This document shows, piece by piece, positions 616 through 2,269 of a DNA stretch of 34,409 nucleotides (position 1 is the first letter of the stretch; each line of letters starts with the position of its first letter). The notes below the pieces were generated by a model. That model did not search any database. It was given only the letters and a program-made list of their open reading frames with translations, and was not told the origin of the DNA. Position numbers and translations under genes: made by a program. The stretch lies in assembly GCA_027487315.1 (NCBI GenBank), contig JAIYDW010000038.1:1-34409 (forward strand), read 5' to 3'. This DNA comes from Verrucomicrobiaceae bacterium (GTDB lineage: Bacteria; Verrucomicrobiota; Verrucomicrobiia; Verrucomicrobiales; Verrucomicrobiaceae).

Positions 616-643
616 TTGACTGTGACCCAGAACTTTTTAACAT
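616..643 (+). promoter_or_regulatory. Sigma70-type promoter for the putative small RNA
   Basis: TTGACT at 616-621, a 16-nt spacer and TAACAT at 638-643. The predicted start is near 650, and an intrinsic terminator follows about 100 nt later with no convincing protein gene between them. Confidence 0.5.
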
Positions 644-649
644 TCCCCT

Positions 650-786
650 GTCTGTTGAGGTTCTTCTTCGCGGACCATGGAGTGCCCAGCTTCCTCGGCT
701 TAGCATTTCGTGAAGCGGTCCCTATCGTTGTTGGTTGCTGGATCGTTGGCCCTGCGGCTCCGCATGCCGCAGGGCCATTTTTTTTG
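650..786 (+). ncRNA. Putative free-standing small RNA of about 137 nt
   Basis: A sigma70-like promoter upstream and a strong intrinsic terminator at the end define a short plus-strand transcript. Between them, GGACC (672-676) can pair with GGTCC (717-721), with an inner stem of GCTT against GAAGC, so a central hairpin is plausible before the terminator hairpin. Base composition is balanced here, unlike the C-saturated neighbours, as expected of a constrained RNA. The SRP RNA core motif and a tmRNA CCA end were looked for and not found; 6S RNA cannot be excluded by eye. The cyclase-like gene diverges from it and the GTPase gene converges on it. Function unknown. Confidence 0.4.
748..785 (+). 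terminator. Strong Rho-independent terminator
   Basis: GGCCCTGCGGC (748-758) pairs perfectly with GCCGCAGGGCC (766-776) around a 7-nt loop, followed by A and an uninterrupted T run. The T run is on the plus strand, so it ends plus-strand transcripts and does not belong to the minus-strand GTPase gene whose stop lies at 793. Confidence 0.85.
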
Positions 787-792
787 CCTCGC

Positions 793-2241
793 TCATGCTT
801 GGTAGAGCGTCTCCAACACCCGCAACGTCATCCGCTTCACTAGCCGATTCGACTCCCGCACCAGCACATCCGGCATCGTCTGCTTCTCCACCCCCAGCTT
901 CCACAGATCATCCACCGAGATCACCTCCATCTCCGTCACCTGCTCCACCACCTCACGCCATTGCCTCGGCTGCTCCCCCTCCTGCCACGCGCCGCGCCCA
1001 CGACCAAAATGCGCCACTGCCAAATAGCACAGCACCGCCAGTCGCACCTGCTCGCGAAAGTGCTCCTTCGACCAGTGCATCCGCTGATCGCCCCCACGCA
1101 CCAAGTTGTAACTGCGGATCACCGCATACGTCGTCAACCCCACCCCGATCCCGCCCACCAGCGCCCCACCCCCAAACGTCATCCCTCCCGCCTTCAAGTC
1201 CGCGATCAATCCCAGCATCGCCCCACCGGCCACACCACTCATCGCTCCCCAAATGCTCTCCGAAATCTTCTCCGGCGTGTAAAACTGCCCCGCCAAGGCC
1301 GACGACGCCACTGTCCCCGACTCCCCTTCTAAACCATGCAGCAGGATCAGCGCGTTCGTCGTCCGCTCCATCCGCTCCGCCAACCGCGTCGCCAGTTGCT
1401 GCCTCGCCTCCGCATACTCCTGTTTGATCTCCGCCCGCCCGATTCCCACCTTCTCCCACAGCGACTCCGCCCTCACCTCCACCCCGTCCAGCACAGCCGA
1501 AGCCAGCAAGTCCGCCACCCGCCTCATCGCATCATCAAACATCGCCTGATTGCGCTTCTGCCACGCCAGCTTCAACTCCCCAAACAACTCCCGCCGCTCC
1601 TCCGGCAACACCTCTTCCAGCGTCGCCATCAAAAAATCCTCCTGCACCCAGCACCGCGCAAACGCATCCAACGATAGCACCCGCACCACTTGCGGATACC
1701 TCGCCAAATGCTCCCTCCACTCGCCTTCGTCCGCCTCGCTCGATCCCGCCGGCCCCGTCTGATTCAACAACGCCACCACCGGCTTCTTCACCCAACTCAA
1801 AATCTCCATCTCCGGCGCCAAATACCCCGCCGACTCCGGTGGCTCCCCCGCATTCACCAAATACAAAACCACATCCGCCTCATCCCGCACATTCTTCAGC
1901 GCCTGCTGACTGCACCACAGCGGCTTGTCCGTGATCCGATCCCAAGTCTGCGACAAAAACCAAATCAACGCATTGCTCTCCCGCTGCAATCGCTTCAACA
2001 ACCGCGCGCTATCTCCGAACCCCGGCGTATCCCACAACCGCAGCACCTTCCCGCCCTCCTGAATCAGCGTGTAAGACTCATTAAAGAGCGTCACATGCGG
2101 CGCATCCCGCACCTCTCCCACATCCCGCCGCAACAACGTCCGCGCCAGCGAGGTCTTCCCCGCATTGGTATGTGAAATCAAGCTCAGCGTCACCATCTCA
2201 GCAGAGGGTGCGGCAGTCGCGGATTTCATTACGGCAGGCAT
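793..2241 (-). CDS. DUF3482-type GTPase with C-terminal glycine-rich membrane-active region
   Basis: This is a GTP-binding protein of about 482 residues. The P-loop (SHTNAGKTS, residues ~23-31) is degenerate at its first position. The switch/G3 motif is DTPG in LWDTPGFGDS (~70-78), and G4 is NQTG in place of NKxD, a form I associate with DUF3482 GTPases. The middle is charged and helical. A glycine-rich hydrophobic stretch (~330-375, GGAMLGLI...GGALVGGIGVGLTTY) could insert in or lie on the membrane. The gene starts 28 nt after the stop of a DUF2868 gene; the DUF3482/DUF2868 pair also occurs in proteobacteria with unknown function, which supports both calls. Start codons are ambiguous: TTG 2247, ATG 2241 or ATG 2229 are possible, and all keep the P-loop. 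Confidence 0.8.
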   Translation of the reverse strand: MPAVMKSATAAPSAEMVTLSLISHTNAGKTSLARTLLRRDVGEVRDAPHVTLFNESYTLIQEGGKVLRLWDTPGFGDSARLLKRLQRESNALIWFLSQTWDRITDKPLWCSQQALKNVRDEADVVLYLVNAGEPPESAGYLAPEMEILSWVKKPVVALLNQTGPAGSSEADEGEWREHLARYPQVVRVLSLDAFARCWVQEDFLMATLEEVLPEERRELFGELKLAWQKRNQAMFDDAMRRVADLLASAVLDGVEVRAESLWEKVGIGRAEIKQEYAEARQQLATRLAERMERTTNALILLHGLEGESGTVASSALAGQFYTPEKISESIWGAMSGVAGGAMLGLIADLKAGGMTFGGGALVGGIGVGLTTYAVIRSYNLVRGGDQRMHWSKEHFREQVRLAVLCYLAVAHFGRGRGAWQEGEQPRQWREVVEQVTEMEVISVDDLWKLGVEKQTMPDVLVRESNRLVKRMTLRVLETLYQA

Positions 2242-2269
2242 AAACAAACAACGTCGAGAATGCCTCTAT

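Follow-up and report, generated by a model that had tools for sequence, protein, structure and literature searches.

Positions 616 to 786 of the 34,409 nt of Verrucomicrobiaceae DNA analysed here (hereafter the window) almost certainly form a real and autonomous small RNA gene, with a promoter, a predicted transcript of ~137 nt and a strong terminator. The first-pass annotation had listed this interval as a candidate novel small RNA, and the gene is upheld by its conservation across the family and by covariation; it has no match in Rfam. It is reasonably probable, judging from the comparison of genomes, that the RNA acts in trans as an antisense RNA that would block the internal translation of the tail of ppdK.

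The promoter proposed in the first-pass annotation, TTGACT-N16-TAACAT, is present on the plus strand and conserved in 49 relatives. Both elements were recovered by a promoter scan and by the alignment of relatives: the -35 element TTGACT at 616-621 and, after a spacer of 16 nt, the -10 element TAACAT at 638-643, whose conserved form is TTTTTAACAT. The scan found 2 sites in 3 kb where 0.4 were expected. Because of this background, the promoter by itself is weak evidence and its weight rests on conservation. TTGAC and TTTTA occupy identical positions in 49/49 distinct aligned relatives, a conservation that is partly by construction, since these rows were picked by a pattern requiring TTGA[CT] and TTTTA. 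Upstream of the -35 element, an A/T tract on the plus strand (TTTTTTGGAAAAA, 591-603, conserved as CTTTTTGCAAAA) may be an UP element. Three further blocks, with no strand assigned, were delineated from the aligned upstream regions: an imperfect palindrome at 565-581 (family form TCTCAnnnnTGAGAAT), which is a putative regulator-binding site, the conserved element CTAAAAT (533-539) and the element TGTCAAG (516-522), in which GTCAA is invariant. The conservation of the blocks between 516 and 603 suggests a binding place for some regulator. As a separate observation, TGTCAAG, CTAAAAT and the palindrome persist even when the upstream gene is reversed.

At the other end, the GC-rich stem and long T run announced earlier were confirmed as an intrinsic terminator on the plus strand (P4, 747-777) followed by eight T (778-785). 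The terminator scan, which gave 8 sites in 3 kb for 1.8 expected, assigns it 12 pairs, 10 of them G-C; in the aligned relatives it has 11 pairs, 7 of them changed on both sides, and 100% of the cells are paired. The transcript is unlikely to be translated, as had been proposed: the longest complete ORFs within the 49 transcripts have 0 to 36 aa and none is plausible. The interval does escape its C-saturated surroundings, with a C content of 0.28 in 647-786 vs 0.51 and 0.44 in the flanks.

The gene following the RNA encodes a GTPase with DUF3482 (793-2247, minus strand, Pfam PF11981 and PF01926). It lies outside the RNA gene and is convergent with it, and the next gene is also convergent in most relatives. 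Downstream neighbours vary and include TrpE, PheS and others besides the GTPase of the window, which was identified with Pfam. Upstream neighbours, putatively identified by reading the sequences, include a PQQ-type beta-propeller, a NagZ-like hydrolase, a prenyltransferase-like repeat protein and ProA. The promoter, the A/T tract, the terminator and the further upstream blocks persist as these neighbours change. Since the neighbour genes vary among genera, the RNA is not a leader. A cis-acting role, as leader or attenuator for a gene on the plus strand, is indeed exceedingly improbable: pheS lies downstream on the same strand in one genome (G011, locus L101), but the convergent orientation prevails both here and among most relatives, and the next gene in the window is not on the strand that a riboswitch or leader would control. 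The first-pass annotation had foreseen that the interval might prove to belong to the leader of an extended plus-strand transcript, an outcome that was thus not encountered. The RNA gene appears to be an independent transcription unit located away from its putative target, as is typical of trans-encoded RNAs.

The predicted folding energy of the 140 nt at 648-787 is -65.5 kcal/mol (z -5.85), and 0/200 shuffles are as stable. The structure comprises four hairpins on the plus strand, of which the last is the terminator. P1 (650-675) has 9 pairs, 6 of them changed on both sides. P2 (676-712) consists of three stacked helices (helices 2-4: 11 pairs, 6 double-changed) and its apical loop is C/U-rich in many members. 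P3 (716-745) has the stem CGGUCC/GGAUCG, with 98.1% of the cells paired, and a large loop predicted to be exposed. We assessed covariation, a check suggested by the first-pass annotation, in an alignment (A4) of 35 of the 49 distinct sequences, which omits the divergent members of g2, g9, g10 and G002, because P2 has to align, as well as some near duplicates. In A4, 93.8% of the cells pair vs 86.5% in shuffles, and double-sided changes affect 19 pairs and 120 cells vs 10.6 and 36.6 in shuffles; 0/500 shuffles reach either value. Slid versions of the structure pair only 33-41% of the cells, a comparison that favours the proposed structure, which was drawn from the same sequences and their folds. 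P3 is so constant that A4 contains no double change in it; G008 has U-A in place of C-G at the outer pair of this hairpin. The core of the P3 loop, UUGGUUGCU, is almost invariant and occurs in the extended form GUUGUUGGUUGCU in most genera. UUGGUUGC is invariant in 49/49 rows, partly by selection, since the rows were found partly via this core.

A covariance model built from 35 sequences retrieved the RNA in 65/68 Verrucomicrobiaceae genomes and in 11/11 genera, so that it is conserved well beyond the original strain, the first requirement expressed in the first-pass annotation. Among good-quality genomes of the family the proportion is 46/47. There is one strong copy per genome wherever the model matches in the family, and the model has no match in G421, G434 and G016. 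In a scan of 387 genomes of the phylum (E <= 0.01), 30 match: seven from the family, with at least 49 bits, and 23 others, with at most 35.3 bits. We rejected the latter as members. We inspected 21 of them and the other two (L139, L140) are partial matches of 27 nt; nearly all of the 21 resemble terminators located where coding genes end and have neither the core nor the promoter, and one (L141) is just a partial look-alike of the core. The RNA is therefore without convincing occurrence beyond Verrucomicrobiaceae among these 387 genomes. With blastn, the 38 relatives searched yielded strong matches, at 99% in two congeneric genomes and at 71-83% in other genera, some covering part of the query, while many of the 37 genomes with matches at E <= 1 hold chance-like ones only. 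A scan of named genomes for the core KTRTTGGTTGCTGGATCG returned 74 stretches, with a promoter upstream in 44 and without it in 30. All 44 are in records labelled Verrucomicrobia or its genera. Among the other 30, two (L069, L075) look real, their upstream end being missing, and one (L026), in a contig labelled Paceibacterota, has the P3 hairpin and no recognised promoter, which is probably a binning error. The rest were discarded as chance-like, most being devoid of the P3 stem.

The RNA does not correspond to a known class. Rfam gave no match in the window at gathering scores and only two weak matches 5' of the RNA at E <= 5, and neither Rfam 15 nor the literature searched yielded a description of this small RNA family. 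The RNA resembles 6S RNA in size and single copy, and a diverged 6S or SRP RNA might be envisaged on these grounds. This is hardly credible, since genuine loci for both are found elsewhere in the same genome: 6S RNA at G000:C56:28951-29133 (55.2 bits) and the bacterial small SRP RNA at G000:C235:37319-37413 (54.4 bits), both above the cut-off. The models RF00013 (6S) and RF00169 (bacterial SRP) have no match at the RNA gene, and ARAGORN detected no tmRNA in the window, in line with the absence of SRP and tmRNA hallmarks noted before; the model search of Rfam, including 6S, that had been advised gave the same answer. A plasmid search returned no match. Hfq-dependent base-pairing small RNAs have their own promoter, an exposed seed and a terminator with a U tail. 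The RNA gene shares these features, its seed being predicted to be exposed. Yet, unlike in those systems, Hfq (PF17209) was found in 0/38 relatives, whereas it was detected in 5/14 control genomes; the presence of Hfq expected of a dependent RNA was thus not observed among the 38 genomes.

The P3 loop is G/U-rich and nearly invariant, which fits the expectation for a seed. The exact complement of a 12-mer of the loop occurs at two places in the genome: the RNA gene itself and ppdK (G000:C103:66753-66764, preceding ATGGCTAAAAAAGC). The proposed seed, GUUGUUGGUUGCU at 727-739 on the plus strand, has a 13-nt complement there (G000:C103:66752-66764). When one mismatch is tolerated, 12-nt complements are not enriched across the same genome (44 vs 53 in the reversed control). 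It is important to highlight that the ppdK target was identified post hoc. The frame upstream of the site is that of ppdK (TIGR01828, E 1.4e-195; the protein is partial and scores below the whole-protein cut-off). The site is in the 3' part of the gene, ~15-30 nt 5' of an in-frame AUG, at which a histone-H1-like tail rich in lysine and alanine begins. A pattern made of AACCAACA, 8-38 nt and ATGGCNAARAA matches 54/68 genomes of the family and 0/68 with the reversed control, and GCAACCA is at the ppdK site in 8 further genomes. In total, the complement is conserved in 62/63 family genomes with a visible ppdK site, i.e. the 68 minus G016 (cut off), G415, G428, G454 and G455. In G008 the RNA is kept and ppdK has neither the insert nor the site; its match to the pattern is on a different contig from ppdK. 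Nine ppdK genes fetched by similarity rather than by the motif (from G004, G005, G006, G007, G012, G014, G015, G020 and G022) all carry GCAACCA. In outgroups, 13/13 ppdK genes lack both insert and motif, and the site pattern matches 16/380 genomes of the phylum outside the family, in a chance-like manner. A looser pattern (GCAACCA..GAGG..ATG) gave mostly chance-like sites in three genomes.

Regarding gene architecture, ppdK of Verrucomicrobiaceae (L184, L213-L255) has a short in-frame insert, an internal ATGGCNAAG start and then the lysine/alanine-rich tail, and in related families it has the tail or a plain end, the insert being absent. Two other configurations were discarded. The site does not belong to the 5' UTR of a separate histone gene, as it is inside the open ppdK frame. 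Pairing of the 5' end of the RNA with the 3' UTR of ppdK looked plausible and was dropped because the element in that UTR lacks family-wide conservation.

The ppdK frame continues uninterrupted across the site in the 30/30 loci fetched by motif and in 39/39 linkers overall. This implies that the site is translated and that constraint on the peptide contributes to its conservation. The indels near the site are mostly frame-preserving, and thus the region is also translated. The codons at the site are GCA-ACC in 38/39 linkers, and the remaining linker (L223) retains these nucleotides although they are read in a different frame. We compared this with 41 control columns of the ppdK body (invariant residue and four-fold degenerate codon in 38 of the 39 sequences): none has a single codon, and the share of the commonest codon is 0.61 on average and 0.89 at most. 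GCA accounts for 120 of the 916 alanine codons in the ppdK body. The codon invariance is partly by construction, because 30/39 linkers were fetched by a pattern containing AACC; the 9 linkers fetched via ppdK similarity show the same frozen codons. The comparison shows that the ppdK site is under constraint at the nucleotide level. The energy of the duplex between RNA and site of the same genome is below the shuffle mean in 33/33 pairs, and in 20/33 no more than 25 of 500 shuffles attain it, although the pairs are not independent because the genera are related. The longest complement spans 9-13 nt in ten linkers, where between 0 and 25 of 1000 shuffles attain the observed length. The base adjoining the 9-nt core is matched in g4 and mismatched in g2, g3, g5 and g10, with no consistent covariation. 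The RNA would thus combine a conserved and exposed seed with a conserved complement in an mRNA, the hallmark of trans-encoded small RNAs, and we consider it likely that the pairing between the P3 loop and ppdK is functional.

Alternatively, the small RNA could be real and its invariant loop could bind a protein or another main target, the match in ppdK resulting from a conserved peptide linker and an A/C-rich composition. The open frame through the site would fit such an explanation, as would the retention of the loop in G008, where ppdK lacks the site, and the fact that the invariant loop and 3' stem arm exceed the ppdK match in length. The frozen codons, when compared with the 41 control columns, and the frame-changed linker argue against it, as does the length of the complements relative to shuffles in the ten linkers. 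Moreover, GCAACC is absent from 12/14 leaders of DUF1428 genes, several of which are likewise A/C-rich. Overall, we find this alternative rather unlikely. Two leaders from g3 (L302, L303) carry GCAACCAA and could be a genus-specific target; we take their genes to belong to the DUF1428 family. We rejected these leaders as a second target for the whole family, because the motif occurs in 2/14, both in g3.

Returning to ppdK, the position of the loop match just before the histone-like tail suggests that the RNA controls the tail. The RNA of ~137 nt, presumably transcribed as an independent unit, would act in trans: the P3 loop would pair with (A)GCAACCAA(CAAC) in the ppdK message and, in many genomes, UCCUC in the 5' arm of P3 would pair with GAGGA, the Shine-Dalgarno of the internal AUG. 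Shine-Dalgarno-like sequences are found in 31/39 linkers, and the remaining 8/39 have no clear one before the AUG. Occlusion of the internal start would reduce internal initiation and lower the amount of free H1-like peptide, in a pairing that would proceed without the Hfq chaperone. The comparison of genomes establishes the gene, its structure and distribution, the complementarity and the constraint on the site; we infer the expression of the RNA, its pairing in the cell, the use of the internal AUG and an effect that is repressive, as opposed to activation or decay. In our view, such repression at the internal start has slightly less than an even chance of being the outcome. The ppdK target is thus a strong comparative lead and not a demonstration.

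Chlamydia, which belongs to the same superphylum as Verrucomicrobiota, provides a parallel. In Chlamydia, IhtA is described as a small RNA that targets hctA and ddbA, with predicted stem-loops whose loops pair near the hctA start, including the Shine-Dalgarno, and occlude the HctA initiation region (PMC4355289, PMC3469542, PMC8343073). The RNA studied here would resemble IhtA, as described there, in acting in trans through loops predicted to pair around the initiation region for a histone-like protein that is small and basic. It differs in having four hairpins ending in a terminator, with the putative seed in the third, and a site inside ppdK, 5' of an internal AUG. The likeness is functional only and we claim no sequence relationship. 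More tentatively, the RNA might set, across the family, the amount of free H1-like nucleoid peptide via the internal ppdK start, as an Hfq-free switch that arose in Verrucomicrobiaceae with the ppdK insert, in parallel to IhtA/HctA. If the ppdK reading is true, it would connect nucleoid packing with the metabolism of carbon and pyrophosphate via an internal start codon, and would be a second case of a small RNA acting on a histone-like protein in the wider group, in bacteria that are free-living and in part cultured. The newly described RNA now has a known gene and structure, a defined phylogenetic range and one specific candidate target.

The direction of control could also be the reverse, with the ppdK message capturing the RNA as a sponge and other mRNAs being regulated. 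A site within translated sequence is an unusual place for repression, and there are possible extra sites in the DUF1428 leader of g3 and in the 3' part of a gene for a small secreted protein in g9 and g10. However, these are confined to one or two genera and the ppdK site alone is family-wide, which makes the sponge quite improbable. Concerning the secreted protein, three loci (L177 in g10, L178 and L179 in g9) have a close copy of the core on the strand opposite to the 3' part of the gene, so that its mRNA would carry a 14-nt complement, CGATCCAGCAACCA, beside a terminator-like hairpin. These loci may represent a second target or a second RNA.
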